A stretch of DNA of 64,000 bases from Runella defluvii. Lineage in GTDB: Bacteria; Bacteroidota; Bacteroidia; Cytophagales; Spirosomataceae. The translations under genes were made by a program, and so were the position numbers. Shown piece by piece: positions 3,276 through 27,712 of the stretch (positions within the stretch are counted from its first letter, which is position 1; each line of letters starts with the position of its first letter). The notes beneath the pieces were generated by a model. The model saw only the letters and a program-made list of their open reading frames with translations, made no database searches and was not told the origin of the DNA. Where the stretch lies: NCBI RefSeq assembly GCF_014195535.1, contig NZ_JACIBY010000005.1, forward strand, positions 317,845-381,844, read 5' to 3'.

Positions 3276-3291
3276 AGTTCTTTTATTTACC

Positions 3292-3355: not shown

Positions 3356-3369
3356 TTGGGGATAGGGGT

Positions 3370-5453: not shown

Positions 5454-5552
5454 ACTCTACAAATTTGAGAATTTGAAAATTCGGCAATGTAAGAAATACA
5501 TCGTGTCATTAATTTTCAAATTGCCTCATTTTCAAATTAGAAAATTGTCCCT

Positions 5553-5942: not shown

Positions 5943-6050
5943 AACTATGTTGATTTTCAAAACTTTCAAATCTTTTTTATTTTACCAAAATGTTCGCAAA
6001 GAACCAGGTTGACCGCATTAAATAGCTTTTTATTGCTCCAGAGGAGCTAC

Positions 6051-6181
6051 ATCTTAGTAGAAAGAATGACCCAGGTATTCCCCCAAGCCCCATCGGGGTG
6101 ACATCTTTCACCGAGAGTCAGTCGCCCCGACGGAGCCTTGGGAGGTGGGGGACGTGTTTGCTTACCTTTTTCTACTAAGAT
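6051..6181. repeat. Long imperfect inverted repeat (possible MITE-like element)
   Basis: The arms start ATCTTAGTAGAAA (6051-6063) and end in its near complement (about 6168-6181). Inside, CCCCAAGCCCCATCGGGG on the left pairs with CCCCGACGGAGCCTTGGG on the right, around a short central loop near 6103-6120. A small palindrome AGCCTC-GCT-GAGGCT follows at about 6183. It occupies most of the gap between the creatininase and ridA genes. No open reading frame lies inside. Confidence 0.6.
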
Positions 6182-6259
6182 TTAGCCTCGCTGAGGCTAC
6201 TTTTTTTAAATGCGTTTAACCTGTCAAAGGGCATTCACTTGTGTTTCTTTGTACAATTC

Positions 6260-13499: not shown

Positions 13500-14519
13500 A
13501 TGAAAAAAACCACATTTACTAGAAGAAATTTTGTTAAAAGCGCTACTGTCGGAAGTTTATCGTTGTCAGCCCTTGCCCCTTCCTCTTTTGCCTCTGCGTC
13601 CGCAACGGTAGCCGCAGGCAAGCGAGTAGGCATCATTGGCCTTGATACCTCGCACAGTACCGCCTTTACCAAAGTTCTCAATGCGTCCGATGCTAGTGCC
13701 GACTACCAAGGCTACAAAATAGTCGCGGCCTATCCACACGGCAGCAAAGACATTGAAAGTAGCACCAAACGCATTCCTAGTTATACCGAAGAAGTCAAAA
13801 AATTGAATGTCGAAATCGTCGATTCGATTGAAGCATTGTTAGAAAAAGTCGATGTGGTGTTGCTCGAAACCAACGACGGCCGCCGTCACCTCGAACAACT
13901 TATCCCTGTTCTTAAAGCAGGAAAACGCGTCTTTATCGACAAACCCATTGCCGCTTCGCTTTCCGACGTCCTCACCATCTTTGAAACCGCCAAAAAATAC
14001 CAAATGCCACTTTTCTCCGCTTCTTCGTTGCGGCACATAAAAGGCGTAGAAAAAGTGGATAAAACCAAAGTCGTAGGCGCTGATACCTTTAGCCCTGCGG
14101 TGTTGGAAAAAACGCACCCCGATTTATTCTGGTACGGCATTCACGGCGTCGAAACGCTCTACACTGTCATGGGTACGGGCTGCAAACAAGTGATTAGAAT
14201 CAACAACGAAGGTACCGACATTGTGGTAGGTACTTGGGCCGACGGGCGCGTGGGTACCTTCCGTGGAACACGCACGGGCAAACACGACTACGGCGGCACG
14301 GTTTATACCCAAAACGGCAACATCGTTCTCGGCCCTTATGGCGGTTACGAGCCTCTGTTAAAGGACATTGTCGCTTATTTTGAAACGGGCCAAGTCCCCG
14401 TTACCCCCGAAGAAACGATTGAAATTTTTGCCTTTATGGAAGCCGCCGACGAAAGTAAACGCCAAGGCGGAGTCCCCGTAACGCTTGAAAGTGTGTTAAA
14501 AAAAGCAAGAAAAAGCTAG
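13500..14519 (+). CDS. Tat-exported Gfo/Idh/MocA-family oxidoreductase
   Basis: 339 residues. The N-terminus has a twin-arginine signal (TRRNFVKS, then a hydrophobic stretch ending SFASASA), followed by a Rossmann domain (KRVGIIGLDTSHS, about 41-53) and the family DKP motif (VFIDKP) on the strand after VVLLETND. Gfo/Idh/MocA enzymes oxidise sugars or cyclitols with tightly held NAD(P); Tat export fits a protein folded around its cofactor in the cytoplasm. It is the first gene of the plus-strand cluster, divergent from gntR, followed after a hairpin by the exported DegT-type gene. Confidence 0.88.
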   Translation: MKKTTFTRRNFVKSATVGSLSLSALAPSSFASASATVAAGKRVGIIGLDTSHSTAFTKVLNASDASADYQGYKIVAAYPHGSKDIESSTKRIPSYTEEVKKLNVEIVDSIEALLEKVDVVLLETNDGRRHLEQLIPVLKAGKRVFIDKPIAASLSDVLTIFETAKKYQMPLFSASSLRHIKGVEKVDKTKVVGADTFSPAVLEKTHPDLFWYGIHGVETLYTVMGTGCKQVIRINNEGTDIVVGTWADGRVGTFRGTRTGKHDYGGTVYTQNGNIVLGPYGGYEPLLKDIVAYFETGQVPVTPEETIEIFAFMEAADESKRQGGVPVTLESVLKKARKS

Positions 14520-14526
14520 ACGGTGT

Positions 14527-14548
14527 GGGTGGTTTCTCAAAACCACCC
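14527..14548. terminator. TGAG/CTCA-loop hairpin
   Basis: GGGTGGTTT, loop CTCA, AAACCACCC: a perfect 9-bp stem 8 bp after the oxidoreductase stop. A second, truncated relative follows (GTTTCTCAAAAC at about 14554). Same hairpin class as at 75-94 and 17365-17578. Confidence 0.6.
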
Positions 14549-14616
14549 ATCGAGTTTCTCAAAACCCCCGTTTGTTGGTAGTAATCCCCTCATTTTGACT
14601 AAAAACCTGTATTTAT

Positions 14617-16011
14617 ATGCCTTCCCAACCCTTTTCACGACGAGAGTTTCTCAAACGAAATTCGCTTACGGGACTCGGCGCTGCCTTGGCTCCCACCCTG
14701 CTAACGACCTCACCCGCAGAAGCTAACGCAAAATCAGTCACGTTTTCGTTGGCAGAGCCTCCAGCGTTGTTGGGAGGCAAACCCGTACGGACGCAACAGT
14801 GGCCTACGTGGCCCATTTGGAAACCCGAAACTGATGAAAAACAACTGCTCGAAGTTATCCGCAGCGGCGTTTGGTCACGGGCCAATGTCGTCACCGACTT
14901 TGAAGCAAAATGGGCACAAGCCGTCGGTGCAAAGCGTTCGTTGGCGGTAGTCAATGGCACCAACGCCCTCATCACAGCATTGGCACAGCTCAACATTCGC
15001 GGGGGCGATGAAGTACTGGTACCTCCTTATACCTTTATCGGAACGGTCGCGCCCGTCATTGCCAACGGCGCTATGCCCGTATTTGTCGATGTTGACCCCG
15101 AAACGTTTCAGATTGACCCTGCCAAAATTGAGGCCAAAATCACGCCTCGCACCAAAGCCATTATCCCTGTGCATATTTTAGGCTTGCCAGCCAATATGCC
15201 ACAGATTTTGGCCATTGCCAAAAAACACAAATTGGCCGTGATTGAAGATGCTTGTCAGGCGCATTTGGCCGAAATCAACCACCAAAAAGTAGGAACTTTT
15301 GGCGATGCGGGCTGTTTTAGCTTCCAAAATTCCAAAAACTTAGCCATCGGCGAAGCTGGAGCGATTGTAAGCAACAACGACTTATTTATGGATCGTTGCT
15401 TTTCGTACCACAACTACGGTAACCCCTACGGGATGGCTTCGGGAGTGATTGGCGCGGGTACCATCATGCAGGGCAACAAACAACGCATTACTGAATACCA
15501 AGCCGCCATTGGGTTAGCACAACTCAAACGGCTGGAAGGAGAAACTAACCTCCGCAACGAAAATGCGGCTTACCTAAAAGCCAAAATCGAACAAATCCCA
15601 GGTATTATTCCGTACAAGCTGTACGGCAATGTCACCAAAGCAGCCTTCCATTTATTTCCGTTCCGTTATCAAAAATCGGCCTTTAAAGGACTTTCACGCG
15701 ACACGTTCTTAAAAGCGCTGACGGCCGAGGGAATCCCATGTTCGAAAGGTTACGCGACCCTCAACAACATGCCTTACCTCGACGATGCGTTCCAATCGAA
15801 AAATTTCCAGAAAATGTACCCCAAGGCCATGCTGGATTTTAAAAGCTACGTGGAGCGGAACCATTGTCCCAACAACGACCGCCTTTGCAACGAAGAAGCC
15901 GTTTGGTTTACCCAAAATATGCTCCTCGGTACACGCGCCGACATGGACGACATCGCCAATGCCATCGAAAAAATCTTTACCCACGCCGATAAACTCCTGA
16001 CAATGAAATGA
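14617..16011 (+). CDS. Tat-exported DegT/DnrJ/EryC1/StrS-family PLP aminotransferase
   Basis: 464 residues. A twin-arginine signal (SRREFLKRNS, hydrophobic stretch, SPAEA cleavage region about 35) precedes a full fold-type I domain: PYTFIGTVAP, EDACQAH with Asp211 against the pyridinium nitrogen, and FSFQNSKNL with Lys240 as PLP Schiff-base lysine. DegT enzymes transaminate keto-sugars, normally on cytoplasmic sugar nucleotides; export of one is unusual. It follows a Gfo/Idh/MocA gene, the usual partner that makes the keto group, and its stop overlaps the next gene start as ATGA, implying coupled translation. Confidence 0.88.
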   Translation: MPSQPFSRREFLKRNSLTGLGAALAPTLLTTSPAEANAKSVTFSLAEPPALLGGKPVRTQQWPTWPIWKPETDEKQLLEVIRSGVWSRANVVTDFEAKWAQAVGAKRSLAVVNGTNALITALAQLNIRGGDEVLVPPYTFIGTVAPVIANGAMPVFVDVDPETFQIDPAKIEAKITPRTKAIIPVHILGLPANMPQILAIAKKHKLAVIEDACQAHLAEINHQKVGTFGDAGCFSFQNSKNLAIGEAGAIVSNNDLFMDRCFSYHNYGNPYGMASGVIGAGTIMQGNKQRITEYQAAIGLAQLKRLEGETNLRNENAAYLKAKIEQIPGIIPYKLYGNVTKAAFHLFPFRYQKSAFKGLSRDTFLKALTAEGIPCSKGYATLNNMPYLDDAFQSKNFQKMYPKAMLDFKSYVERNHCPNNDRLCNEEAVWFTQNMLLGTRADMDDIANAIEKIFTHADKLLTMK

Positions 16012-17351
16012 GAAAGCATCTTTGGCTGGTGGGGTTATTCATCATTTCAACCACCTTTGCAAAAGGCTGGAAAGCAGGCGTTTCCAAAGTCGTTATTACA
16101 CCTAAAGAAGCGATTTGGCAAGCAGGGTATGCCTCGCGCACCCACGCTTCGGAAGGAAAACTGCACGATTTGTGGGCCAAAGCCGTGGCACTGGAAGACG
16201 AAAATGGCCAACGCTCGGTGCTGGTTACTACCGATATGCTGGGGTTTCCTAAAGCCATGTCAGACCGCATCCGAAGCCAGCTACAAGCACGTTTTGGGTT
16301 GAGTAAAGCGAATGTGCTCTTGAACAGTTCGCACACACATTCTGGCCCTGTGCTGTACGATGCCCTGCACGATATTTATCCCCTCAATGCCGCCGAAGAA
16401 GCCAAAATCAACCAGTATTCGCGTTGGTTGGAGGGGCAAGTGGTGGAGTTAATTGGCAATGCGTTGAAAAACTTGGAACCCGTTGAGCTGTTTTCCCAAA
16501 ACGGCGTAACCCGCTTTCAGGTCAACCGACGTAACAATAAAGAAGGGGCTCTGCTCGAACAAACCGAATTAAAAGGCCCCAACGACTACGCCGTCCCTGT
16601 CATCAAAGCCGTGACGCCCAAAGGAAAGCTCAAAGCCATTGTTTTCGGCTACGCTTGCCACCCTACCGTACTCGACCTTTACGCCCTTTCGGGGGATTAC
16701 CCTGGTTTTGCCCAAATCGAGTTAGAAAAAACGCACCCCGAAGCCACTGCTTTGTTTTTTCAAGGTGCCGCAGGCGACCAAAACCCTTTGCCTCGCCGCA
16801 CGGTTTCGTTGGCCAAGCAATACGGCAAAGAACTCGCCGCCGCCGTGGAACGGGTGTTGGAAGAACCCATGAAACCGCTGTCGGCGCAGTTTCAATCGGC
16901 TTACGCCGAGGTCACGTTACCGCTTTCGGCCCCACCTACGGAGGCACAACTGTTGAAAGTTCAGCAAACTGAAGCCCCCTACATGCAGCGTTGGGCTACT
17001 CGCCTGCTCAGTGAAATGAAGCAAGGAAAGCCGTTTGTCTCGTCTTACCCTTACCCCATCCAACTTTGGAAATTAGGCGAACAGGCTTTGTTCAGTTTTG
17101 GGGGGGAATTGGTCATTGAATACGCCATTGAGTGCAAAAAGCGCTACGGAACGGACATTTTTGTGGCGGCTTATTCCAACGACGTCATGGGTTATATCCC
17201 TTCCGCCACGATACTGAAAGAAGGGGGCTACGAAGGTCAATCGTCGCAAATGGTGTATGGCTTGCCGAGCGTTTGGGACGCATCAGTGCCTTCCTTGATT
17301 TATGTCGAAATTGACAAACTAGCAAAGCAAATTAAGCTCGTGCCGAAATAG
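16008..17351 (+). CDS. Neutral/alkaline ceramidase-like amidohydrolase (exported)
   Basis: 447 residues with a short signal peptide (LVGLFIISTTFAKG) and the N-terminal domain of the neutral ceramidase family: GVSKVVITP, GYASRTH, and the zinc/nucleophile segment NSSHTHSGP (about 105-113), then FGYACHPTVL and FFQGAAGDQNP. The family hydrolyses N-acyl amide bonds. Many bacterial members have unknown substrates and sit with sugar genes. Translational coupling (ATGA) to the exported aminotransferase suggests the two act on the same molecule, possibly an N-acylated amino sugar (inference). Confidence 0.85.
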   Translation: MRKHLWLVGLFIISTTFAKGWKAGVSKVVITPKEAIWQAGYASRTHASEGKLHDLWAKAVALEDENGQRSVLVTTDMLGFPKAMSDRIRSQLQARFGLSKANVLLNSSHTHSGPVLYDALHDIYPLNAAEEAKINQYSRWLEGQVVELIGNALKNLEPVELFSQNGVTRFQVNRRNNKEGALLEQTELKGPNDYAVPVIKAVTPKGKLKAIVFGYACHPTVLDLYALSGDYPGFAQIELEKTHPEATALFFQGAAGDQNPLPRRTVSLAKQYGKELAAAVERVLEEPMKPLSAQFQSAYAEVTLPLSAPPTEAQLLKVQQTEAPYMQRWATRLLSEMKQGKPFVSSYPYPIQLWKLGEQALFSFGGELVIEYAIECKKRYGTDIFVAAYSNDVMGYIPSATILKEGGYEGQSSQMVYGLPSVWDASVPSLIYVEIDKLAKQIKLVPK

Positions 17352-17364
17352 GGTATCTAACACA

Positions 17365-17586
17365 CGGTTGTAAGCAACCGTAACGTGAGGGTACTCATAC
17401 CCTCACGCACACAGAACACGCGGTTGTGAGCAACCGCGATGCGAGGGTATGAGTACCCTCGCTCACTAGGAACCCTTGCCGCGGAGCGGCTACCTGTTTG
17501 TAGCATAAAAATAATAACACAATCCACTTGCCACGTAGTGGCTACCCAGCTACAATGCGAGGGTATGAGTACCCTCGCTCACTAGG
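17365..17586. repeat. Cluster of six small hairpins, including TGAG-loop type
   Basis: In order: CGGTTG-TAAG-CAACCG (17365-17380); a 10-bp stem around CTCA (17384-17407); CGCGGTTG-TGAG-CAACCGCG (17419-17438); a 9-bp stem around TGAG (17441-17462); GCCGC-GGA-GCGGC (17478-17490); GCCAC-GTA-GTGGC (17530-17542); and a second copy of the 9-bp TGAG hairpin (17557-17578). A 30-bp segment at 17441-17470 recurs at 17557-17586. They fill the 277-bp gap before the beta-propeller gene. Confidence 0.85.
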
Positions 17587-17628
17587 CGCACACACCAATA
17601 ATTATTTTTTCCAAAAAACCACAACCAC

Positions 17629-18894
17629 ATGAATTCACTTACTGCCAAAGCCTACTTTTCGGGTTTTGAGTTGGCTCACGATACCTACAACGCCATTTCA
17701 GTGGCGAGCAACGGTAAAGTTTATTACGTTCTTTGTTCAGAATCGTACGACATCGGCGGACAAATGTACGCTTACGACCCCGCTACTGACCAAACCGAAT
17801 GGGTAGCCGACCTCACCGACGTCTGCGGCGAAAAAGAAGCTAACGCCATTCCGCAGGGAAAAAGCCACGTTCGTTTTTACGAAAACAACGGCAAACTTTA
17901 TTTTGCTACCCACATTGGCGTCTATGAGATGATTGAGGGCATGGAGCGCCTTCCTACCCAAGCACCCAATGGAAAAAATCTCTACCCTGGGGGACATTTT
18001 CTTTCCTACGATTTGGCTACGGGTGAATTTGAAGACCTCGCTCTTGCCCCTGATGGCGAAGGGATTTTAACCATGACTATCGACCGTGAACGAGGGCATT
18101 TGTACGGCATTACGTGGCCGTTGGGGTATTTTATTGACCTCGACCTTTCGACCAAAACCCTTAAAAAAGTAGCGTTAGTTTCGGCCAATGGTGAGGCTGG
18201 TATTCCTGGAGATGACTACCGTGTTTTGTGCCGTTCGATGCTCGTTGACCCGCGTGATGGTAACGTTTATTTTTCCACCGCCGAAGGAGACATTTTCACT
18301 TACCAACCTGATGATGAAGGGCTAACCAAGCTAGAAAACATTGACTTACGTATCGACTATTTTGGCAAATACGACCCCAAACACCCAGGCAGCATGGGGT
18401 ACAATTGGCGGAAAATTTTCTGGTATGCTCCTGAACAAGTTGCCTACGGAATCCACGGAAATTCGGGGTATTTGTTCCGTTTTGACCCCAAAGCTCAAAA
18501 AATAGAACTTGTTGAACGCCTCACGTCGGAGCCTTCGCGCAAAAGTGGCATGTTCGACCAATTTAGCTACGGGTATTTGGGCTTCCAATTAGGCCCCGAC
18601 CACGAAACCATTTATTACCTCACAGGTGGTCCTATTTACATCGACGGGAAACGGGTCAAAGGAGCCGACCAAATTGCCAAAGGAGCCGCCAAAGGACTCG
18701 AAAACCTGCATTTGGTTACGTACCACTTACCGACCCTCACTTACCACGACCACGGCCCGATTTTCTACGCCGACGGCAGCCGCCCTACTTACGTTAATTC
18801 CGTTGCCATTGGCGCCGATAAGTCGGTCTATACCTTGGCACGCTTTGACCACCAAGGACACGAGATTCAAGATTTAGTAAAAATCAGTTTGTAA
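17629..18894 (+). CDS. Beta-propeller protein of unknown function
   Basis: 421 residues without signal peptide or membrane segment. The sequence shows blade-like repeats, such as GKVYYVLCSES, GQMYAYDPATD, GKLYFATHIGVYE, GHFLSYDLATGEF, GHLYGITWP, GNVYFSTAEGDIFTYQPD, SGYLFRFDPK and KSVYTLARFD, typical of YncE/SMP-30-type propellers. No catalytic motif is recognised. It lies 7 bp before the lipoprotein dehydrogenase-like gene and probably shares its transcript. It could bind or act on a sugar, but no function should be assigned. If the start is right it is cytoplasmic, unlike most of its neighbours. Confidence 0.75.
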   Translation: MNSLTAKAYFSGFELAHDTYNAISVASNGKVYYVLCSESYDIGGQMYAYDPATDQTEWVADLTDVCGEKEANAIPQGKSHVRFYENNGKLYFATHIGVYEMIEGMERLPTQAPNGKNLYPGGHFLSYDLATGEFEDLALAPDGEGILTMTIDRERGHLYGITWPLGYFIDLDLSTKTLKKVALVSANGEAGIPGDDYRVLCRSMLVDPRDGNVYFSTAEGDIFTYQPDDEGLTKLENIDLRIDYFGKYDPKHPGSMGYNWRKIFWYAPEQVAYGIHGNSGYLFRFDPKAQKIELVERLTSEPSRKSGMFDQFSYGYLGFQLGPDHETIYYLTGGPIYIDGKRVKGADQIAKGAAKGLENLHLVTYHLPTLTYHDHGPIFYADGSRPTYVNSVAIGADKSVYTLARFDHQGHEIQDLVKISL

Positions 18895-18901
18895 TATCCC
18901 A

Positions 18902-20836
18902 ATGAATGCCTCGAAAAACCTTCTCTTCTTCGCACTTGTAGGACTCAGTTGGTCGTGTGCGCATTATACCGACCCCCTCACCCCCGACGAAGCCCTCAAA
19001 AGCTTTACCTTGAGCGACGACCGCCTCCAAGTCGAAGTATTTGCCACCGAACCGCACGTACTCGACCCCGTTGAAATGGTGTTTGACGAGGAGGGAAACG
19101 CGTTTGTTGTCGAGATGCCCGACTACCCTTCCAAACCCGAAGATGGGACGTTGGGAGGAGCGATTCGGCTCCTGCGCGATACCAACCAAGACGGGCGCAT
19201 TGATTCGGCCATTGTTTTTGCCGACAACCTTTCGGAAGCTACTAGCATTTTGCCGTGGGAAGGAGGACTACTAGTCGCCGCCGCTCCCGATATTTTGTTT
19301 TTAAAAGATACTACAGGCGACTACCGCGCCGATATTCGTGAGGTACTTTTTACGGGCTTTTTTGCCAACAATTCGGAAGCACAAATCACCAACTTGCACT
19401 ACAACGTCGATAACTGGATTTATGCCTCCAACTGTGGGCAAGATGGGCTAGTAAAATTTATGCGAAACCCCAAATTACCACCCATTTCGGTCAAAGGCGG
19501 CGATTTTCGTTTTCGTCTCGACCGAGGGCAGTTTGAAATTGAGTCGAGTACGGGGCAATTTGGGATGTCGGTCGATGACTGGGGCAACCGCTTTTTTACC
19601 GAAAACTCCCTGCACATTCAGCACGCCCCCATTGCAGGACGTTATTTGTTCCGTCATCCATTTTTGCCGTCGTACGATGTGGCTTTGAATATCTCCGACC
19701 ACGACCCTGACATGTTTCAAGAAACGCCCGCTCCCTACTGGCGTCAAGAACGTACCAAGCGCCGCAATGAGCAGTTTGCCGAAGCCAAACTCGACCGCCA
19801 CGAATACGCCGAAGATCATTTTACAGGAGCTTCGGGAGGAACATTTTACGGCGGAAATTTACTTCCCGACGACTACCATGGTTCGGTGTTTACGGGCGAA
19901 GTGGCGGGAAATTTGATTCACCGTGACGTTATACAACCATTGCCCAATAGCCCAACGTTTGTTGCCAAACGCGGGGAAAAAGAAAAGACCACCGAGTTTT
20001 TGACCTCTTCCGACCCGTGGTTTCGACCTGCGCAACTGAGCGTGGGCCCCAACGGCGTGCTGTACGTCATCGACATGTACCGACAGCACATCGAAACTCC
20101 CACGGCCATTCCTGAAGATTTAAAAGAAGAAATGGATTTTTTCAACGGTAACAAACTCGGGCGCATTTACCAGATTGCCCCAAAAGAAGCCAAACTAACG
20201 CACGAAGCGCCTAAATTACGTTCAAAATCATCGGCCGAATTGGTTGCGCTTTTAGCTCATCCGCAGCAATGGTGGCGGCTCAATGCCCAGCGACTTTTGC
20301 TCGAAAAGAAAGATAAATCGATACTTCCCGCCGTGACTGACCTTTTCTTAACGCACGCCGACGCTCGCGCTCGTTTGCACGCATTTTTTGTCTTGGAAGG
20401 ACTTAATACCCTGACGCCCAGCTTGATCAAAAAAGCCCTCACCGACGCTCAGCCCGACCTCCGCGCCTATGGCCTCATCGAAGCCGAAAAGTGGCCTGAG
20501 TTAGTACCTGAACTTATCGAAAAAACCACTGACCTGTCGCCCAAAGTATCGTTTCAAGCTTGTTTGAGCCTTGGGCAGTACAAAACCCCTGCTGCTTCAA
20601 CCGCATTGGCCCGTGCCCTCTCAAAACACGTTCAGGACAAATGGTACCGCATGGGAATTTTAAGTTCGGAGACAGGAGCCTCTTTTGCACTCATTGAAGT
20701 ATTGCAAAAGGAAGGTTTTTTTGATCGAATGACACCCGACAAAGAAAGTTTCCTCAACGACTTTGCTCACGTGGTGCGTACCCGCAATCGCTCAGGGGAA
20801 GCTCAGCGATTAGCCCTTTTGTTGGGGAAGAAATAA
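18902..20836 (+). CDS. Membrane-bound dehydrogenase-like lipoprotein (PVC-type N-terminal domain with HEAT-like C-terminus)
   Basis: 644 residues. Lipoprotein signal LSWSC with Cys19. Residues 35-440 form a beta-propeller of the kind in putative membrane-bound dehydrogenases of Planctomycetes and Bacteroidota (VFATEPHVLDPVEMVFDEEGNAFVVEMPDYP region, GPNGVLYVIDMYRQHIE, GNKLGRIYQI). Residues about 450-630 look like helical HEAT repeats. Relatives often end in a c-type cytochrome with CxxCH; none is present here, so any electrons would have to leave through another carrier. The HiPIP gene 25 bp downstream is an obvious candidate (inference). Confidence 0.8.
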   Translation: MNASKNLLFFALVGLSWSCAHYTDPLTPDEALKSFTLSDDRLQVEVFATEPHVLDPVEMVFDEEGNAFVVEMPDYPSKPEDGTLGGAIRLLRDTNQDGRIDSAIVFADNLSEATSILPWEGGLLVAAAPDILFLKDTTGDYRADIREVLFTGFFANNSEAQITNLHYNVDNWIYASNCGQDGLVKFMRNPKLPPISVKGGDFRFRLDRGQFEIESSTGQFGMSVDDWGNRFFTENSLHIQHAPIAGRYLFRHPFLPSYDVALNISDHDPDMFQETPAPYWRQERTKRRNEQFAEAKLDRHEYAEDHFTGASGGTFYGGNLLPDDYHGSVFTGEVAGNLIHRDVIQPLPNSPTFVAKRGEKEKTTEFLTSSDPWFRPAQLSVGPNGVLYVIDMYRQHIETPTAIPEDLKEEMDFFNGNKLGRIYQIAPKEAKLTHEAPKLRSKSSAELVALLAHPQQWWRLNAQRLLLEKKDKSILPAVTDLFLTHADARARLHAFFVLEGLNTLTPSLIKKALTDAQPDLRAYGLIEAEKWPELVPELIEKTTDLSPKVSFQACLSLGQYKTPAASTALARALSKHVQDKWYRMGILSSETGASFALIEVLQKEGFFDRMTPDKESFLNDFAHVVRTRNRSGEAQRLALLLGKK

Positions 20837-20861
20837 CAGGTTTATTTTATCATTAACCCGC

Positions 20862-21185
20862 ATGAAAAGAAGAGAATTTATCGCCACTGCGTTACCGATA
20901 GTACCCGCCTCCGCATTTTTAGTGAGTAGCTGTCAACCAAAATCGGCTTCTCATTCTGAAACGACCGACCCTTGCAAAGATTTTTCAATGGTTAGTGAGA
21001 ATGACCTAAAAACTCGGAAAAAACTGGGGTATGTCGATGCCTCACCCCGTGCCGAGTCTCAGTGTGGAAATTGCAATTTGTGGCTTCCTCCCAAAGATGG
21101 CAAAGCCTGCGGTGGCTGTATGTTGTTCAAAGGCCCCGTTCAAACGGCAGGTTATTGTACGTATTGGGCACCGCAAAGCAAATAA
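20862..21185 (+). CDS. High-potential iron-sulfur protein (HiPIP), Tat-exported
   Basis: 107 residues. The N-terminus MKRREFIATALP is a twin-arginine signal; VSSC (Cys24) could also make it a lipoprotein. The C-terminal half has the HiPIP cluster pattern Cys68-x2-Cys71-x14-Cys86-x12-Cys99 with GGCMLFKG and GYCTYWAP. Extra cysteines are Cys38 and Cys83. HiPIPs carry one electron at high potential in the periplasm. Its place after a dehydrogenase-like lipoprotein suggests it is that enzyme's electron acceptor (inference). Confidence 0.9.
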   Translation: MKRREFIATALPIVPASAFLVSSCQPKSASHSETTDPCKDFSMVSENDLKTRKKLGYVDASPRAESQCGNCNLWLPPKDGKACGGCMLFKGPVQTAGYCTYWAPQSK

Positions 21186-21353
21186 CAAACCTTTCCAAGT
21201 TTTGTAAACCATCGAAAAAGAAACTTGGAAAGACTAAGATACTTTCCAAGGTTCGTAAAGCGTCGAAAAATAGCCTTGGAAAGGTTAAAAACCTTTCCAA
21301 GGTTCACAGGAAACTTGGAAAGTTTAGGCAAAACCTCGGGCTAACCTTTATTT
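21186..21353. repeat. AACCTTTCCAAG inverted-repeat cluster
   Basis: Alternating copies of ACCTTTCCAAG/CTTTCCAAGG and their complement CTTGGAAAGGT fill this gap. The clearest pair is CCTTGGAAAGGTT followed by AACCTTTCCAAGG near 21279-21304. They can form nested hairpins after the HiPIP gene. A related terminator is at 60592-60624. Confidence 0.65.
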
Positions 21354-21398
21354 TTGCAGGTGTCAATAAACACATTATTTCTAACCAAAAACCTTTAC

Positions 21399-22766
21399 AT
21401 GAGCCAAAACTCAACTTCATCCAACAGCGCTTCTCGCCGCGATTTTCTCAAAAAAAGCCTAACAGGAACGGCCGTTTTGACCGTAGGCGGTGTTCTTCCA
21501 GGCTTTAGTGCAAAAAGTTATGCCAATATTTTGGGCGCTAACGACAAGGTACGCCTCGGTGTCATGGGAGTCAACAGCCGTGGATTTGCCTTGGCAACCA
21601 ACTTTGCTCTTCAACCTAACTGCGAAGTCGTCAGTATTTCAGACGTGGATTCAAAAGCCGCTGCAAAGTGCGTGGCGGGGGTAGAGAAAATCCAAAACCG
21701 CAAGCCAAAAGAAACGCCCGACTTCCGCAAAGCACTGGAAGACAAAGACATGGACGGCCTCATCGTTGCTGCTCCTGACCACTGGCACGCCCCTGCGGCT
21801 ATTTTGGCTTCAAAAGCAGGTAAACACGTGTATTTGGAAAAACCATGCAGCCACAACCCGCACGAAGGCGAATTGTTGATGGCCGTAGCTGCCAAGTACA
21901 AAAACGTGATTCAGATGGGAAACCAGCGTCGGTCGTGGCCCAACGTCAAACAAGCCATCAAAGAAATTCACGACGGAGTAATTGGTCGCCCGTATTTTGC
22001 CAAAGGCTGGTACACCAACAACCGCCCTACCATCGGGACGGGCAAAGCAACGGCCGTACCGTCGTGGCTCAACTTTGATTTGTGGCAAGGCCCCGCGCCA
22101 CGCAAAGCCTATAAAGACAACATCATCCACTACAACTGGCACTGGTTTTGGAATTGGGGAACGGGTGAAGCCCTCAACAACGGCACCCATATGCTCGACC
22201 TCATGCGTTGGGGATTGCAGGTAAGTTATCCGACCAAAGTTTCCTCTTCGGGTGGGCGTTACCGCTACCAAGACGACTGGGAAACACCAGATACCCAAGT
22301 TATTAACCTCGAATTTGGCAAGGATAAATTCATGACGTGGGAAGGCCGTAGCTGCAACAGCCGCAATATCGAAGGCAGCAGCGTAGGCGTTTCGTTTTAC
22401 GGAGAAAAAGGTACGTTGGAATACGGCGGCGGCAATGCGTACAAAATTTATGATTTGGACAACAAGGTCATCAAAGACGTTACCAACGACATGCCGATTG
22501 ATCCTCGAAACAAAATGAATCCTTCGCAAGCATTGGACGCCACTCACTTCCAAAACTTTGTGGAAGCCATCAAAAAAGGGACGCCGTTGGCATCCGATAT
22601 TATAAGCGGACACCAGAGTACGCTTTTGTGTCAGTTGGGGAACATCGCTTTGCGTTCCAACAGCATTTTGGACATTGACCCCACCAACGGGCACATCAAG
22701 AACAACAAAGAAGCGCAGAAATTCTGGAAACGTGAGTACGAAAAAGGCTGGGAGCCAACGTTGTAA
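21399..22766 (+). CDS. Tat-exported Gfo/Idh/MocA-family oxidoreductase
   Basis: 455 residues from the ATG at 21399; the longer frame adds 15 unrelated residues before it. A twin-arginine signal (SRRDFLKKS, then TAVLTVGGVLPGFSA) leads into a Rossmann domain (DKVRLGVMGVNSRG) and the family EKP motif (VYLEKPCSHNP), then a C-terminal sheet domain with the conserved NWHWFWNWGTGEALNNGTHMLD-type segment seen in secreted Bacteroidota/Planctomycetes members. It oxidises or epimerises a sugar, probably with bound NAD(P). It is the second Tat-exported member of the cluster, upstream of the sugar permease gene. Confidence 0.9.
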   Translation: MSQNSTSSNSASRRDFLKKSLTGTAVLTVGGVLPGFSAKSYANILGANDKVRLGVMGVNSRGFALATNFALQPNCEVVSISDVDSKAAAKCVAGVEKIQNRKPKETPDFRKALEDKDMDGLIVAAPDHWHAPAAILASKAGKHVYLEKPCSHNPHEGELLMAVAAKYKNVIQMGNQRRSWPNVKQAIKEIHDGVIGRPYFAKGWYTNNRPTIGTGKATAVPSWLNFDLWQGPAPRKAYKDNIIHYNWHWFWNWGTGEALNNGTHMLDLMRWGLQVSYPTKVSSSGGRYRYQDDWETPDTQVINLEFGKDKFMTWEGRSCNSRNIEGSSVGVSFYGEKGTLEYGGGNAYKIYDLDNKVIKDVTNDMPIDPRNKMNPSQALDATHFQNFVEAIKKGTPLASDIISGHQSTLLCQLGNIALRSNSILDIDPTNGHIKNNKEAQKFWKREYEKGWEPTL

Positions 22767-22788
22767 CGATTCTTTCTAAACCTAACCA

Positions 22789-22819
22789 ACTTCCCGAAAG
22801 TGGGTAACTTTCGGGAAGT
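22789..22819. terminator. Hairpin between the oxidoreductase and MFS genes
   Basis: ACTTCCCGAAAGT, loop GGGTA, ACTTTCGGGAAGT: a perfect 13-bp stem starting 23 bp after the stop. Likely terminator or processing site. Confidence 0.65.
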
Positions 22820-22836
22820 CCAAAACCATCCTTTCT

Positions 22837-24192
22837 ATGAAATCCTCTACTGCTGCCGTTGAAGTAAGCAGCCTAAGCCCGCGCGAAACCACCGTTTCTA
22901 TTTTCTTGATTGGGCTGATGTTTTTTATCTTCGGCTTCATTTCGTGGGTCAACTCCATTCTGATTCCTTACTTCAAAATTGCCTGCGAACTCACCAGCTT
23001 TCAAGCCTATTTGGTGGCGTTTGCGTTTTACATTGCCTACTTTATCATGTCGGTACCTGCCTCGTATCTGCTCAAAACCCAAGGGTTCAAAAAGGGCATG
23101 ATGTTTGGCTTTTGGGCGATGGCGTTGGGTGCGTTTATTTTCGTTCCTGCTGCTATGACGCGCACTTATGGCATTTTCTTGATGGGACTGTTTACGATTG
23201 GCATTGGGTTAGCCATTTTACAAACCGCTGCCAATCCTTACATCACCATTTTAGGCCCAAAAGAACGTGGTGCTCAACGAATTAGCATCATGGGAATTTG
23301 CAACAAAGCCGCGGGAATTTTGTCACCGTTGGTATTTGCTGCCGTGATTTTACGCCCCACCGACACCGATTTATTTGCGCAACTTGGCACGATGAATCCC
23401 ACCGAAAAAAGCGCTGCTTTGGACGAACTCGTCCGTCGGGTGATTCAGCCTTACACTGTTTTAGGAATATTTTTATTTGTGTTGGGGTACTTGGTGTATC
23501 GCTCGCCTTTACCCGAAATCAATACCGAACACGAAAGCCCCGAAGTCGCCAGTGCCAACGCGGGCAAAACCAGCATTTTCCAGTTTCCGCACCTTATTTT
23601 GGGGGCTGTGGCCATTTTCCTTCACGTAGGTACGCAGGTGATTGCCATTGATACCGTCATTGGGTATGCCAACTCCATGGGCATTGATTTGCTCAAGGCC
23701 AAAACATTTCCGTCCTACACCTTGGCTTGTACCATTTGTGGGTACATCATCGGGATTATCACCATCCCCAGATTTGTCAGTCAGGTCAATGCCCTGCGCT
23801 TTTGTACGGTGTTGGGAACGGTGTTTACGTTGCTCATTATTTTTGCCAAAGGCACCGTTCAATTTCTAGGCCATACCGCCGACCTTTCGATTTGGTTTGT
23901 GGTATTACTTGGCTTGGCCAACTCACTCGTATGGGCGGGAATTTGGCCCTTGGCGTTGGACGGCCTTGGACGTTATACCAAACTCGGCGCCTCGATTCTC
24001 ATCATGGGCTTGTGTGGCAATGCCATTATGCCGCTTTTCTACGGCTATTTTGCCGATTTGTACGACGTGCGCACTGCGTATTGGGTGTTGTTGCCTTGTT
24101 ATTTGTACTTGGTGTATTATGCGGCCTACGGCCATAAAGTGAAACGTTGGGGAACCTCACCCCAACCCCTCTCCTTTCAGGAGAAGGGCTAA
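22837..24192 (+). CDS. Sugar MFS transporter (FucP/GluP type)
   Basis: 451 residues with about twelve membrane helices. FIFGFISWVNSILIPYFK in helix 1 and the QTAANPYITILGP segment are hallmarks of the FucP/GluP/NagP group that takes up fucose, glucose/galactose or N-acetylglucosamine by proton symport across the inner membrane. Next to nagA and a nagB-like gene, GlcNAc or a related amino sugar is the likely cargo (inference). The last dozen residues (TSPQPLSFQEKG) are encoded by a dispersed intergenic repeat whose second copy follows at about 24228, so the natural C-terminus may have been extended by the repeat. Confidence 0.9.
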   Translation: MKSSTAAVEVSSLSPRETTVSIFLIGLMFFIFGFISWVNSILIPYFKIACELTSFQAYLVAFAFYIAYFIMSVPASYLLKTQGFKKGMMFGFWAMALGAFIFVPAAMTRTYGIFLMGLFTIGIGLAILQTAANPYITILGPKERGAQRISIMGICNKAAGILSPLVFAAVILRPTDTDLFAQLGTMNPTEKSAALDELVRRVIQPYTVLGIFLFVLGYLVYRSPLPEINTEHESPEVASANAGKTSIFQFPHLILGAVAIFLHVGTQVIAIDTVIGYANSMGIDLLKAKTFPSYTLACTICGYIIGIITIPRFVSQVNALRFCTVLGTVFTLLIIFAKGTVQFLGHTADLSIWFVVLLGLANSLVWAGIWPLALDGLGRYTKLGASILIMGLCGNAIMPLFYGYFADLYDVRTAYWVLLPCYLYLVYYAAYGHKVKRWGTSPQPLSFQEKG

Positions 24193-24262
24193 ACTTTGCT
24201 CTTAAACCCCTTATCATGGGGTTTATCCTTACCCCAACTCCTCTCAGGAGAAGGGCTAATTT
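24157..24262. repeat. Dispersed repeat, two copies, one within the MFS coding end
   Basis: CTCACCCCAACCCCTCTCC...GGAGAAGGGCTAA at about 24157-24192 recurs as TTACCCCAACTCCTCTC...AGGAGAAGGGCTAA at about 24228-24259. Each copy can fold around its CTCTCC/GGAGAAG part. The first ends the MFS gene. Confidence 0.65.
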
Positions 24263-24286
24263 TTTAGCCAAAAAGACCTGCATTTT

Positions 24287-25474
24287 ATGAAAATAAAAAT
24301 CAGTAACGGGACTGTTCTCACGCCCTTTCGCGCCATTAAAAATGGAACGGTGGTGGTGGAAAATGGTCAAGTCCTCGGTGTCCATGAAGGCAATATAGAC
24401 GTACCCGAAGCCGAAGAAATCGACGCCCAAGGGCGATACATTTCTCCTGGGTTTATCGACATCCACGTCCACGGCGGTGGTGGCGCCGATTTTATGGATG
24501 GTACCGAAGAAGCATTTCTGACGGTTGCCAAACTGCACGCGCGTTTCGGTACAACTGCCTTGGTACCTACCACGCTCACCGCCGAAAAGGAAGATTTTCT
24601 CCACACGCTCGATGTGTATGAAAAAGCCCATCGACGCAATACCAACGGCGCGGCCTTTTTAGGGATTCACCTCGAAGGCCCCTATTTTGCGCTAAGTCAG
24701 CGGGGAGCGCAAGACCCGCGTTACATCCGCAAGCCTGACCCCGCCGAATACGAGGAAATTCTGAACTATTCGTCGTCCATCGTCCGCTGGAGCGCGGCTC
24801 CTGAATTAGAAGGAGCGATTCCGTTTGGACAACGGTTACGTCAAAAAGGGATTTTGGCGGCTATTGCTCATACCGATGCTTATTACGACGATGTGTTGGC
24901 AGCCTACGAAAATGGCTATTCACTCGTCACTCATTTGTATTCAGCGATGTCGGGTGTGACGCGCAAAAACGCCTTTCGCTACGCGGGGGTGATTGAAAGC
25001 TCGTACTTACTTGACTTAGACGTAGAAATCATCGGTGATGGCATTCATTTGCCCGCTCCTTTGCTCCAATTTGTCTATAAATTCAAAGGCCCTGACCGCA
25101 CTGCCCTCATCACCGACGCCATGCGCGGCGCAGGGATGCCCGAAGGAGAAAGTGTGCTGGGGTCATTGAAAAATGGCTTGCCCGTTATCATCGAAGACGG
25201 TGTGGCCAAACTCCCCGACCGTACCTCGTTTGCGGGCAGCGTCGCCACCTTCGACCGACTAGTGCGCAACATGATTACGATGGCCAATGTACCGTTGTTG
25301 GATGCCGTTCGCATGGCAAGCACCACCCCCGCCCGCATCATGGGCGTTAGCGACCGCAAAGGCTCGCTCGCCAAAGGCAAAGACGCTGACATTGTTATTT
25401 TTGATGAAAATATCAACGTCGGGATGACGATGGTGGGGGGGAAAGTAGTGTATAATCAGATGCCTACGGCATGA
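24287..25474 (+). CDS. nagA: N-acetylglucosamine-6-phosphate deacetylase
   Basis: 395 residues of the amidohydrolase superfamily. Metal and catalytic residues are visible: HVHG (His60, His62), GIHLEGP (Glu130), AHTDA (His195), VTHLYSAM (His216) and ITDAM (Asp277). It removes acetate from GlcNAc-6-phosphate in the cytoplasm to give glucosamine-6-phosphate. It is followed after 12 bp by the nagB-like gene, the classical pair. Assignment strong, though related N-acyl amino-sugar phosphates cannot be excluded. Confidence 0.93.
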   Translation: MKIKISNGTVLTPFRAIKNGTVVVENGQVLGVHEGNIDVPEAEEIDAQGRYISPGFIDIHVHGGGGADFMDGTEEAFLTVAKLHARFGTTALVPTTLTAEKEDFLHTLDVYEKAHRRNTNGAAFLGIHLEGPYFALSQRGAQDPRYIRKPDPAEYEEILNYSSSIVRWSAAPELEGAIPFGQRLRQKGILAAIAHTDAYYDDVLAAYENGYSLVTHLYSAMSGVTRKNAFRYAGVIESSYLLDLDVEIIGDGIHLPAPLLQFVYKFKGPDRTALITDAMRGAGMPEGESVLGSLKNGLPVIIEDGVAKLPDRTSFAGSVATFDRLVRNMITMANVPLLDAVRMASTTPARIMGVSDRKGSLAKGKDADIVIFDENINVGMTMVGGKVVYNQMPTA

Positions 25475-25486
25475 CAAATCGTTTAA

Positions 25487-26299
25487 ATGTATCAACCTTA
25501 CGTTCAAAAAATGCCTCTTTTGCAAGAAACAACCGTTGACAAACTCCACGTCAAATTAGCCCAAAATCGCCAAGAATTAGGGCAATATGCCGCCGAAATG
25601 GCTGCTACAAACATTAAATCATTGCTCCAAAGCCAAGAAACCGTCAATATTATTTTTGCCGCTGCTCCGTCGCAAAACGAGTTTTTGGACGCCCTCGCTA
25701 TTCAGCCTGGTATTGAATGGCAACGGGTGAATGCCTTTCACATGGACGAATACATTGGCTTGTCGGACGACGCGCCGCAGCGGTTTGGCAACTTTCTCAA
25801 AGACCGATTTTTTGCCAAAGTACCGTTGAGAGAAGTGTTTTACATCCATGGAAACGTAGCAGACGCCGAAGCAGAATGTCAACTTTACTCGGCTTTGTTG
25901 ACCCAATACCCTACCGACATCGTTTGCATGGGCATCGGCGAAAACTGCCACATTGCGTTCAACGACCCGCACATTGCGTTTTTCAACGACCCTGTGCTAG
26001 TCAAAAGGGTGGACTTAGACCTTACGAGCCGTCAGCAGCAAGTACACGACGGCTGTTTTGCGTCGTTGGAGCTTGTTCCCGAGTATGCCCTTACGCTTAC
26101 GATTCCTGCGTTGGTGAAAGCGCCCACGGTGTTTTGCATGGTTCCTGCGGCCCACAAAGCCGAAGCCATTTACCACACCCTCCTCGATGACATCAGCGAA
26201 GTATATCCATCAACGATTTTGCGTACCCACTCCAACGCCACCCTGTTTATCGATCCTAATAGCGCTCAGCAGTGGTTGGAAGCTAGGGAAACTAAGTAA
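25487..26299 (+). CDS. Glucosamine-6-phosphate deaminase-like protein (NagB family)
   Basis: 270 residues with the family motifs FHMDEYIG (84-91, Asp87 in the general-base position) and GIGENCHIAFNDP (149-161, His155 in the ring-opening position). Where most members have GNGH or GDGH this one has ENCH, with Cys154 replacing glycine beside the active site. NagB converts glucosamine-6-phosphate to fructose-6-phosphate and ammonia. Placement after nagA supports that role; the divergent loop allows a different amino sugar phosphate. Confidence 0.85.
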   Translation: MYQPYVQKMPLLQETTVDKLHVKLAQNRQELGQYAAEMAATNIKSLLQSQETVNIIFAAAPSQNEFLDALAIQPGIEWQRVNAFHMDEYIGLSDDAPQRFGNFLKDRFFAKVPLREVFYIHGNVADAEAECQLYSALLTQYPTDIVCMGIGENCHIAFNDPHIAFFNDPVLVKRVDLDLTSRQQQVHDGCFASLELVPEYALTLTIPALVKAPTVFCMVPAAHKAEAIYHTLLDDISEVYPSTILRTHSNATLFIDPNSAQQWLEARETK

Positions 26300-26347
26300 A
26301 TTTGTGGCCACAAACGCTTATTCCTTAAAAAATCACCCACAAATTCT

Positions 26348-27712
26348 ATGAAGAATCGCCTTCTAGGCTGCTTATTAGCTGCAAGTAGTTTAACCCTCCC
26401 CAGCATGGGACAACAAGCCAAAAAGCCCATTAGCCTCATCGTGCTTGAGCCTGGGCACTTTCATGCCGCACTGGTACAAAATACCCGCTACGACAACGTC
26501 AACCCCGTCGTGCACGTGTATGCCACCAAAGGCCCCGATGTAGAGGCGTATCTCGATAAAATTAAAAAGTACAACACCCGCTCTGACGACCCTACGCAGT
26601 GGGACGAGAAAGTTTATACGGGCACTGACTTTTTCCAGAAGATGTTGAGCGAAAAAGCAGGAAATTTGGTGGTTTTGGCAGGAAATAACCAAAAGAAAAC
26701 CGACTACATCAAAAAATCGGTGGACGCGGGGCTGAACGTGTTGGCCGATAAACCCATGGCCATTGATGCCGCTGGTTTTTCGTTGTTGCAAGAAGCTTTT
26801 GCCCAAGCCAAAAAGAAAAACGTATTGCTCTACGACATCATGACGGAGCGCTACGAAATCAGCAATGCCCTCCAACGCGAGCTTGCGCTGGTGCCCGCCA
26901 TTTTTGGTACACTCCAAAAAGGCACGCCCCAAGACCCTGCTGTTACCAAAGAGAGCGTTCACCACTTTTTCAAGTACGTTTCGGGCGAGCCGCTGATTCG
27001 TCCATCGTGGTTTTTTGACGTAAAACAACAAGGGGAAGGCGTAGTGGACGTGACGACTCACTTGGTGGATTTGATTCAATGGAGCTGTTTTCCCAACCAA
27101 ATCATTGACTACAAAAAAGACATCAAGCTCCTCAATGCGACTCACAGCGCCACGACCATGACGCCTGAGCAATTTAAACTCGTCACCAAAAATGACACTT
27201 ACCCCGATTATTTGAAAAAAGACGTAAAAGGTAAAAATCTTGAGGTCTATGCCAACGGTCAGATTGACTACACACTCAGGGGCGTACACGCACGCGCATC
27301 GGTGATTTGGAACTTCCAAGCGCCACAAGGCACGGGCGATACGCACTATTCAATTATGAAGGGAAGCAAAGCGAATCTGATTATACGTCAGGGCAAGGAG
27401 CAGAATTTTAAGCCTGTGTTGTATATCGAATCCCTTAGCAATACGCCAGCGTACGAAAAAGTAGTGGCCGAAGCGTTCAAAAAAGTACAGACAACGTATC
27501 CAGGCATCGAACTCAAGAAAAATGACAAAGGCTGGGAAGTAGTGATTCCGAAAAAATACGACATCGGCCACGAGGCGCACTTCTCACAAGTAGCGAAGAA
27601 ATACATGGACTTTTTGAAGGCTGGAAAACTGCCCGAGTGGGAAGTTCCTAACATGATTTCGAAGTATTATACCACCACGCAAGCCCTCAAAATGGCACAA
27701 AGCAAAAAATAA
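26348..27712 (+). CDS. Exported Gfo/Idh/MocA-like oxidoreductase
   Basis: 454 residues with a Sec-type signal (MKNRLLGCLLAASSLTLPSMGQQ) rather than Tat. The N-terminal domain reads ISLIVLEPGHFHAALV, an atypical start for a Rossmann fold without GxGxxG, but the DKP motif (LADKPMAID) and the layout that follows match the Gfo/Idh/MocA superfamily. A large C-terminal domain (about 190-445) is of the type common in Bacteroidota 'putative oxidoreductase' proteins. No nucleotide-binding glycine cluster is evident, so dinucleotide use is uncertain. It closes the plus-strand sugar cluster. Confidence 0.8.
   Translation: MKNRLLGCLLAASSLTLPSMGQQAKKPISLIVLEPGHFHAALVQNTRYDNVNPVVHVYATKGPDVEAYLDKIKKYNTRSDDPTQWDEKVYTGTDFFQKMLSEKAGNLVVLAGNNQKKTDYIKKSVDAGLNVLADKPMAIDAAGFSLLQEAFAQAKKKNVLLYDIMTERYEISNALQRELALVPAIFGTLQKGTPQDPAVTKESVHHFFKYVSGEPLIRPSWFFDVKQQGEGVVDVTTHLVDLIQWSCFPNQIIDYKKDIKLLNATHSATTMTPEQFKLVTKNDTYPDYLKKDVKGKNLEVYANGQIDYTLRGVHARASVIWNFQAPQGTGDTHYSIMKGSKANLIIRQGKEQNFKPVLYIESLSNTPAYEKVVAEAFKKVQTTYPGIELKKNDKGWEVVIPKKYDIGHEAHFSQVAKKYMDFLKAGKLPEWEVPNMISKYYTTTQALKMAQSKK

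Follow-up and report, generated by a model that had tools for sequence, protein, structure and literature searches.

A Tat-signal-bearing aminotransferase-type protein in a SusCD-type locus of Runella defluvii and its possible part in exported amino-sugar processing

A plus-strand gene cluster of Runella defluvii, at positions 13500-27712 of a 64,000-nucleotide stretch (hereafter the window) of a genome of 8.0 Mb in 50 contigs, encodes a pyridoxal 5'-phosphate (PLP)-dependent aminotransferase-fold protein, DegT, that begins with a signal of the twin-arginine translocation (Tat) type. Comparison of the cluster with its relatives supports a role in the processing of amino sugars outside the cytoplasm, in which a PLP enzyme carried by Tat takes part. 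The identities of the genes, the conservation of the twin-arginine (RR) signals, the modular structure of the cluster and the co-occurrence of its genes are matters of direct observation. GfoA, GfoB, NagP, NagA, NagB and GfoC form a base module that occurs also without the aminotransferase, while DegT, Cer and Prop form a cassette between GfoA and GfoB that is either gained or lost; the PVC-type gene and HiPIP are a second accessory pair.

The window is very close to Runella limosa, the DegT proteins being 99% identical (R. limosa locus L055). Every gene named in a preliminary description of the cluster was found in its place, and a beta-propeller gene at 17629-18894, here called Prop, had been overlooked. 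The features of the cluster are as follows.

13500..14519, plus strand: GfoA, a Tat-signal protein of the Gfo/Idh/MocA fold with a GLDTSH motif (PF01408, 46.6 bits; best fold match 3ezy)
14617..16011, plus strand: DegT, a Tat-signal PLP-dependent aminotransferase-fold protein (PF01041, 315.9 bits; Lys240 at the PLP-lysine position)
16008..17351, plus strand: Cer, a ceramidase-type metallo-amidase, short form of 447 amino acids (PF04734, 56 bits)
17352..17628, no strand: gap between Cer and Prop, with three copies of an 18-bp palindrome, folding strongly
17629..18894, plus strand: Prop, a 421-amino-acid beta-propeller by AlphaFold model and fold matches, signal-less in this clade
18902..20836, plus strand: PVC-type/DUF7133 lipoprotein with HEAT repeat (TIGR02604, 245.2 bits; PF23500, PF13646)
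20862..21185, plus strand: HiPIP, a Tat lipoprotein resembling high-potential iron-sulfur proteins (PF01355, 26.6 bits)
21399..22766, plus strand: GfoB, a Tat-signal Gfo/Idh protein (NF058561, 160.1 bits, cut-off 750)
22837..24192, plus strand: NagP-like sugar permease of the major facilitator superfamily (NF046060, 381.4 bits, cut-off 625)
24287..25474, plus strand: NagA, N-acetylglucosamine (GlcNAc)-6-phosphate deacetylase (TIGR00221, 270.1 bits, above the cut-off of 225.65)
25487..26299, plus strand: NagB-like protein with the variant motif GIGENCHIAFNDP (TIGR00502, 119.2 bits, cut-off 236.9)
26348..27712, plus strand: GfoC, an exported PF16490-type oxidoreductase-like protein and third Gfo/Idh (468.1 bits; signal by eye)

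The open reading frame (ORF) of GfoB starts at a TTG at 21354, and the ATG at 21399 agrees with relatives. GfoC matches 4oo3 with an E value of 3.5e-176.

Export signals and the identity of DegT

As had been proposed from the sequence, four proteins of the cluster, GfoA, DegT, GfoB and HiPIP, carry RR-type signals. In alignments with rows taken from among 20 fetched loci, the RR pair is invariant in DegT (12/12), GfoA (9/9) and GfoB (8/8), and the remainder of the signal varies. A home-made scan for an RR-plus-hydrophobic motif, used in place of a trained predictor, was applied to ORFs with at least 34% identity to a window gene, paralogues included, in 80 named loci that represent the best 80 of 574 confirmed matches. 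The scan was positive for 79/82 DegT, 36/38 GfoA, 24/26 GfoB and 13/14 HiPIP sequences, and for 1/16 PVC-type, 0/55 Cer, 0/59 Prop, 0/27 NagP and 0/26 NagA sequences. The frequency in the first four lies above the background of 27 positives among 400 unassigned ORFs of at least 150 amino acids from the same loci, some of the 27 no doubt being genuine Tat proteins. In a larger GfoA set, the RR motif was present in 76 of 82 distinct homologues, and the source genome contains tatC (168.3 bits, cut-off 132.7). HiPIP is a Tat lipoprotein judging from its sequence; by eye, Cer has a Sec-type N-terminus and the PVC-type protein, which exceeds its TIGR02604 cut-off of 122.2 bits yet has no CxxCH haem motif in its sequence, a lipobox.

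DegT belongs to the DegT/DnrJ/EryC1/StrS family by its PF01041 score, and the PLP-holding residues of the family, Lys240 and an EDACQA motif, are invariant in all 12 aligned orthologues. Among solved structures, the DegT profile best matches 5w71 (241 bits), 2c7t (237 bits) and then 7b0d (234 bits), the last of which ranks first when DegT is used as a single-sequence query. The first two are 2-deoxy-scyllo-inosose aminotransferases, and 7b0d is named glutamine--scyllo-inositol transaminase. The similarity to 5w71 is nearly full-length (profile positions 46-445 of 461); an ungapped FSxQxxK...GE stretch at the PLP lysine is common to DegT and all three structures, and an N-terminal WxxWP is shared with 5w71 and 2c7t. 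The nearest NCBIfam model is PseC, at 192.6 bits against a cut-off of 423.5, and the nearest models are all sugar aminotransferases that score below cut-off. Together, these matches suggest a sugar/cyclitol aminotransferase-type enzyme whose nearest solved relatives are the 2-deoxy-scyllo-inosose aminotransferases. The 2-deoxy-scyllo-inosose and scyllo-inosose aminotransferases are biosynthetic and cytoplasmic, and we know of no Tat signal on any of them.

To our knowledge, PLP chemistry in the periplasm is known only from siderophore tailoring. According to PMC6206403, PvdN of pyoverdine maturation requires cytoplasmic PLP binding for its export, and PtaA is described as a periplasmic transaminase. 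DegT is predicted to resemble these proteins in being loaded with PLP in the cytoplasm, exported by Tat and active outside; PvdN and PtaA act on a glutamate side chain of a siderophore precursor, and DegT is of the sugar/cyclitol aminotransferase type and stands in a glycan locus. The four RR-bearing proteins had also been grouped as enzymes that fold around a cofactor, a description that needs correction for GfoA, whose dinucleotide motif reads GLDTSH rather than GxGxxG.

A base module, a cassette and paralogous pairs

The gene neighbourhood was followed at 20 DegT places, in stretches no longer than 20 kb, and through the 80 named loci; at least six of the 20 places are duplicated among the named loci, and hence at least six places stand twice among these 100 loci (L035-L134). 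Modules were counted by tblastn at 54 of the 80 named loci, those in which DegT reaches 50% identity and is flanked by 6 kb or more on each side (26 were excluded), and because the loci are related by descent the counts do not represent independent events. The automatic ORF selection missed DegT in six of the 80 (L098, L101, L104, L109, L115 and L122). At the 54 loci, DegT is accompanied by Cer in 49, Prop in 46, GfoA in 31, NagB in 25, NagP in 24, NagA in 23, GfoB in 21 and GfoC in 18. PVC and HiPIP are both present (13 loci) or both absent, and creatininase-family and 3-hydroxyacyl-CoA dehydrogenase (3HCDH) genes always appear together (10 loci).

In Runella, the gene order is GfoA-DegT-Cer-Prop-[PVC-HiPIP]-GfoB-NagP-NagA-NagB-GfoC, with variants in Spirosoma, Larkinella and Dyadobacter, and in Ferruginibacter and Puia the order of the cassette is DegT-Prop-Cer. 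DegT-Cer-Prop is present in several families of Bacteroidota, and the neighbourhood, whose recurrence in relatives had been suggested as a check on the preliminary description, is thus conserved. Some Larkinella and Spirosoma loci (L064, L065 and L066) have DegT and Cer without other cluster genes, and in L074 DegT stands on its own.

An order sample of 291 genomes was searched at E values of up to 1e-100 for DegT and 1e-50 for Prop and GfoA. DegT was found in 22 genomes, Prop in the identical 22, and GfoA in 47 that cover all 22. From the 25 genomes with GfoA and without DegT at these thresholds, 16 loci were retrieved: all 16 have GfoA and GfoB together within one 18-kb stretch, accompanied by NagP in 13, NagA in 11 and NagB in 15, and none of the 16 stretches contains DegT, Cer or Prop. 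The distance between GfoA and GfoB is 500 nucleotides or less in nine of the 11 such loci in which it was measured (L203-L213). Because the 16 loci have GfoA and GfoB together, the GfoA-GfoB-Nag genes constitute a base module and DegT-Cer-Prop a separate unit. These genomes rule out an obligate GfoA-DegT pair. The idea that Gfo/Idh and DegT form a single oxidation-transamination unit is therefore abandoned, GfoA without DegT being common and DegT going with Cer and Prop.

Between GfoA and GfoB, loci L210 and L211 have a PVC-type gene, and L210 also has an amidohydrolase there. The view of PVC and HiPIP as an inseparable pair breaks down in the DegT-less loci, where L208 has HiPIP only and L210 and L211 have PVC only. 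A protein starting S(L/I)D(A/T)LRGFDM is encoded within the base module at L216:9286-10404, L222:2461-3615 and L229:12326-13507; the stretch is reminiscent of heparan-glucosaminide acetyltransferases, and the L222 member, which was scanned, has no Pfam match.

A second, paralogous Tat-DegT was found below 50% identity. In L219, L220 and Adhaeribacter L081, the genes after it are one resembling N-acetylmuramic acid (MurNAc)-6-phosphate etherase (NF003915, 312.7 bits in L219 and 324.0 in L081, cut-off 168) and one for a Cer-like protein (28-31% by BLAST; the L219 copy scores 32.8 bits with Pfam against a cut-off of 32.1). The Cer-like gene of L219 and L220 precedes one for a NagP-like permease, and both loci also have a BadF-type kinase-like gene and SusCD. 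Further Tat-DegT/Cer-like pairs occur in L094, L111, L119 and L131 (Cer-like 21-25% by BLAST), and an M55 D-aminopeptidase adjoins the pair in L111. The pairing of DegT with an amidase therefore recurs at other loci, in amino-sugar and possibly cell-wall contexts, and the paralogous pair beside the etherase-like gene suggests a MurNAc-related use of the same two enzymes.

The Bacteroidales locus L125 has four DegT-type genes in a row, three of them with clear RR N-termini. Amidohydro_2 (PF04909) type proteins, identified from scanned representatives of their clusters and some with RR, replace or join Prop beside DegT or GfoA in L050, L051, L079, L081, L085, L086, L092, L106, L110, L120, L125 and L210.

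Cer, Prop and the compartment of Prop

Cer shares the PF04734 domain with the neutral ceramidases 4wgk and 2zws, and its HTHSGP motif, presumably a metal site, aligns to theirs; at 447 amino acids it is shorter than their chains of 646-688. Against the neutral ceramidase model NF041649, Cer scores 20.3 bits, far under the cut-off of 1200. The palindrome in the gap that follows Cer (GAGGGTA..TACCCTC) has no further exact match genome-wide, and the gap folds more strongly than its shuffles (z -7.7). In relatives, the palindrome is present in one copy in R. limosa L055 and absent from L035, L036, L056-L059 and L061. The possibility that the gap hides a signal or a frameshift before Prop was rejected, as all three gap frames contain stops.

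Neither Pfam nor NCBIfam gave a match to Prop of the window at E 0.001. Its AlphaFold model (pLDDT, the predicted local distance difference score, 80.7) is a beta-propeller, with fold matches to propellers. As to a possible oligogalacturonate lyase, the fold match 3pe7 ranks only 23rd among generic propellers, and the pectate-lyase family is absent from the matches of the 12 members scanned even at E 10. At that threshold, 13 families match weakly, SSL_N in nine of the 12 members with a best E value of 0.00078.

Automatic labelling of 74 distinct Prop N-termini gave five Cer-fused forms, eight lipoproteins, four odd extensions and 57 signal-less forms. On relabelling by eye, L095, L097, L107, L121 and L132 of the 57 carry Sec signals, L124, labelled a lipoprotein, looks Sec-type, and the odd extension of L075 contains a lipobox. 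The Cer-Prop fusions (L077, L083, L087, L093 and L094) are about 900 amino acids long and have a Sec-type start, and PF04734 was confirmed in L094 and L077. In a tree of the Prop domain calculated by a quick method from the window and 60 named loci, the 19 exported and 42 signal-less rows require a single change, and the branch between them has moderate support (Shimodaira-Hasegawa-like approximate likelihood ratio test, 83); a midpoint root, adopted for drawing only, places exported forms on both sides. Prop therefore most probably worked outside at first, with one later loss of its signal.

All genomes in which Prop was found are DegT-bearing, in 22/22 cases in the order sample and 6/6 in a phylum sample of 395 genomes, three of whose six Prop genomes are also in the order sample. 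The two genes need not be neighbours: in genomes G447 and G455, Prop and DegT lie on separate contigs (the DegT frame of G447 has one TAG), and in L229 a signal-less Prop stands between GfoA and GfoB with DegT on another contig of the same genome. Nor is the dependence obligate both ways. Eight genomes without Prop near DegT were searched; three have Prop elsewhere, and no match was found in the other five, for whose records (L064, L065, L066, L074 and L104) completeness is not given.

There is thus the question of where Prop acts. One explanation is that Prop of this clade is a cytoplasmic pathway enzyme whose ancestors alone were extracytoplasmic, so that DegT and Prop work in different compartments. 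The 42 signal-less rows of the 61 in the tree, the window included, and the isolated Prop of L229 are consistent with such a relocation, whereas the exported and Cer-fused forms of other lineages and the restriction of Prop to genomes with DegT argue against it; we consider it a serious contender, if short of an even chance. Alternatively, Prop may hitchhike outward on the Tat-exported DegT, by analogy with E. coli PaoABC and hydrogenase 2, in which, as PMC4273604 describes, a protein without a signal of its own is exported together with a Tat substrate. Hitchhiking would explain why Prop is found only with DegT, and relocation to the cytoplasm is the simpler of the two. The combined scheme, in which Tat-exported DegT and Cer of glycan-using Bacteroidota would remove nitrogen from amino sugars outside the cytoplasm before uptake, with Prop of the window's clade as the hitchhiker, is doubtful.

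The wider locus, a proposed pathway and its competitors

The cluster belongs to a broader locus than was first described, whose further genes are read from the opposite strand.

12706..13344, minus strand: GntR/FCD regulator, divergent from GfoA (PF07729, PF00392)
9225-12389, minus strand: SusC-like protein, named from its sequence
7194-8990, minus strand: SusD-like protein (PF07980)
279..7063, minus strand: divergent arm with short-chain dehydrogenase/reductase, dihydrodipicolinate synthase-family, EamA, enolase-superfamily, 3HCDH, RidA and creatininase-family genes
5553-5969, minus strand: RidA, named via its R. limosa counterpart (PF01042)

The divergent arm recurs, whole or in part, beside the cassette in other genera. 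Genes of the stretch 279-12389 are found, as a partial set at each locus, in Runella L055, L057, L058, L060 and L061 and in Arsenicibacter L062, in all six of which SusC and SusD orthologues adjoin the cassette. Genes of this stretch lie by the cassette in Spirosoma L063 and L072, Dyadobacter L080 and L092, and the Chitinophagaceae-type loci L107, L121 and L124 as well. With a PF07980 SusD, a SusC-like ORF and degradative genes, the locus is of the SusCD type. No glycoside hydrolase (GH) was found among the window genes scanned. Across L035-L134, a GH109-type ORF cluster is represented in 13 and a GH20 cluster in six of the 100 loci, one member of each being confirmed by Pfam; GH20 is also in L075, and a PF21252-domain protein with an RR start adjoins the cassette in L063. 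A conserved protein cluster of about 360 amino acids occurs in 10 loci (among them L097:6061-7137, L121:6056-7243 and L063:6322-7404), in some near GH20- or GH109-type genes; its L097 member has no Pfam or NCBIfam match.

The proposal that we tentatively favor, at slightly below an even chance, is a SusCD glycan-use locus with an exported half for deacylation, deamination and oxidoreduction, followed by Nag breakdown. SusCD would import oligosaccharides bearing an N-acylated amino sugar or aminocyclitol, from which Cer would cut off the N-acyl group in the periplasm. DegT, which would fold around PLP before Tat carries it out of the cytoplasm, would then move the freed amino group to a keto acid and leave a keto sugar. 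Tat-exported GfoA and GfoB would carry out oxidations or reductions at hydroxyl or keto groups of the ring, with Prop working on the same intermediate. Leftover N-acetylhexosamine (HexNAc) would enter through the NagP-like permease for breakdown by NagA and the NagB-like protein, and the divergent arm would degrade a sugar-acid or amino-acid by-product, its RidA suiting imine or enamine intermediates. Reaction direction, substrate, step order, donors and acceptors are what we infer, and the substrate may be a HexNAc derivative, an aminocyclitol or a cell-wall sugar.

This proposal draws on the RR pair kept while its flanks vary, tatC, the PLP residues, the association of DegT with Cer and Prop, the five Cer-Prop fusions, the paralogous DegT/Cer-like pair beside the etherase-like gene, the GH109 and GH20 clusters near DegT in relatives, and NagA, which passes its family cut-off. 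The preliminary description had likewise read the cluster as catabolic and periplasmic, and the NagP-like, NagA, NagB-like and SusCD genes, the GH20 or GH109 neighbors of some loci and the Sec-type start of Cer agree with it, although the pathway as then drawn needs recasting into a base Gfo/Nag module and a DegT-Cer-Prop cassette within a larger SusCD locus. The 3-amino sugar then suggested as substrate is retained as one option, the nearest solved relatives of DegT acting on cyclitols and a paralogous pair lying beside a MurNAc-6-phosphate etherase-like gene.

Several observations weigh against the proposal. NagP is not nearby in 30 of the 54 DegT loci, and the substrate of DegT therefore need not be HexNAc. 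The nearest solved relatives of DegT are glutamine-dependent cyclitol aminotransferases, a periplasmic source of donor or acceptor would be needed, and Prop of the window clade has no signal peptide. GfoB, NagP-like and NagB-like all score under the cut-offs of their models (160.1 vs 750, 381.4 vs 625 and 119.2 vs 236.9 bits). The glycine motif of GfoA is GLDTSH in 77 of 82 distinct homologues and GLDTGH in one, the pattern not being found in four, and GxGxxG is not seen; given this degenerate motif, the label of NAD-binding oxidoreductase exceeds the evidence, and NAD (nicotinamide adenine dinucleotide) binding by GfoA is not assured. As for the paralogues, the etherase-like genes of L219 and L081 fall below the stricter equivalog TIGR00274 (259.7 and 271.5 vs 302), and in L094 the Cer-like protein paired with the second DegT does not reach the Pfam cut-off (19.7 vs 32.1). 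Two positions of the GIGENCHIAFNDP active-site motif of the NagB-like protein are D and E in E. coli NagB, and the altered motif may indicate action on another amino-sugar phosphate.

Among the competing explanations, the cassette might serve aminocyclitols, or another free non-nucleotide keto or amino ring, instead of HexNAc: Cer would free the amine, DegT would exchange amine and ketone, GfoA would resemble an inositol dehydrogenase, and the creatininase-family protein would open a diketo ring like IolN. The best solved matches of DegT (5w71, 2c7t and 7b0d) and its frequent occurrence without NagP fit this explanation. So does the predicted GfoA model, which has the Gfo/Idh fold (pLDDT 78) and as its best fold match 3ezy, TM_0414, presumably an inositol dehydrogenase. 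However, the sequence matches of GfoA to solved dehydrogenases are weak and start at residue 85 or later (its Pfam alignment starts at residue 42), the 77 bits of the creatininase gene with the IolN model are under the cut-off of 245 and are bettered by the creatininase and MftE models, and the NagA, NagB-like, GH20 and GH109 neighbors indicate HexNAc. On balance, this explanation is rather unlikely.

GH109 enzymes are NAD-containing glycosidases of the Gfo/Idh fold. An ordinary GlcNAc- or chitin-type locus, in which GfoA and GfoB are GH109- or BT2158-like and DegT-Cer-Prop cuts one special decoration, would account for the base module standing alone in DegT-less genomes. The nearest NCBIfam model of GfoB (nearest chains 8tdf and 8tdh) is the BT_2158-type glycoside 3-dehydrogenase NF058561, and PMC11300592 calls BT2158 a periplasmic glycoside 3-dehydrogenase. 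The locus is like the Bacteroides BT2158 pathway in placing a periplasmic Gfo/Idh in glycan breakdown, and differs in the low GfoB score and in the addition of a PLP enzyme, an amidase and Nag genes. GfoA and GfoB share the fold of GH109, but neither matches its C-terminal domain PF21252 at E 0.001, and GfoB was accordingly rejected as a GH109 member. Moreover, an ordinary locus leaves the recurring DegT-Cer pairing without explanation, and we regard it as unlikely.

Gfo/Idh followed by DegT is the order known from biosynthesis, as in WlbA/WbpE and GnnA/GnnB, but a biosynthetic role here, with oxidation, transamination and N-acylation outside the cytoplasm to equip a surface glycan with an amino sugar, 3-amino or other, is very improbable. 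Many genomes hold the base module without DegT, the window genes that were scanned include no identified glycosyltransferase, and SusCD, NagA, the sugar permease, the GH20/GH109 neighbors and the GntR or LacI regulators all point to catabolism.

In the open-licence PMC literature, no description of a Tat-exported DegT in a glycan locus was found, nor, in the open-licence literature, any paper that joins periplasmic Gfo/Idh glycan use and Tat-exported PLP enzymes at one locus. Prop of the window matches no Pfam family over its cut-off. Testable predictions follow from three features: the cassette, which two conserved genes flank in some genomes and which is missing from between them in others, the Cer-Prop fusions, and what looks like one loss of the Prop signal. 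Should DegT indeed act on extracytoplasmic sugars as part of carbon catabolism, exported amino-sugar processing of this form would add a step of a new kind to glycan breakdown, and how an extracytoplasmic transaminase obtains its partners would become a question.

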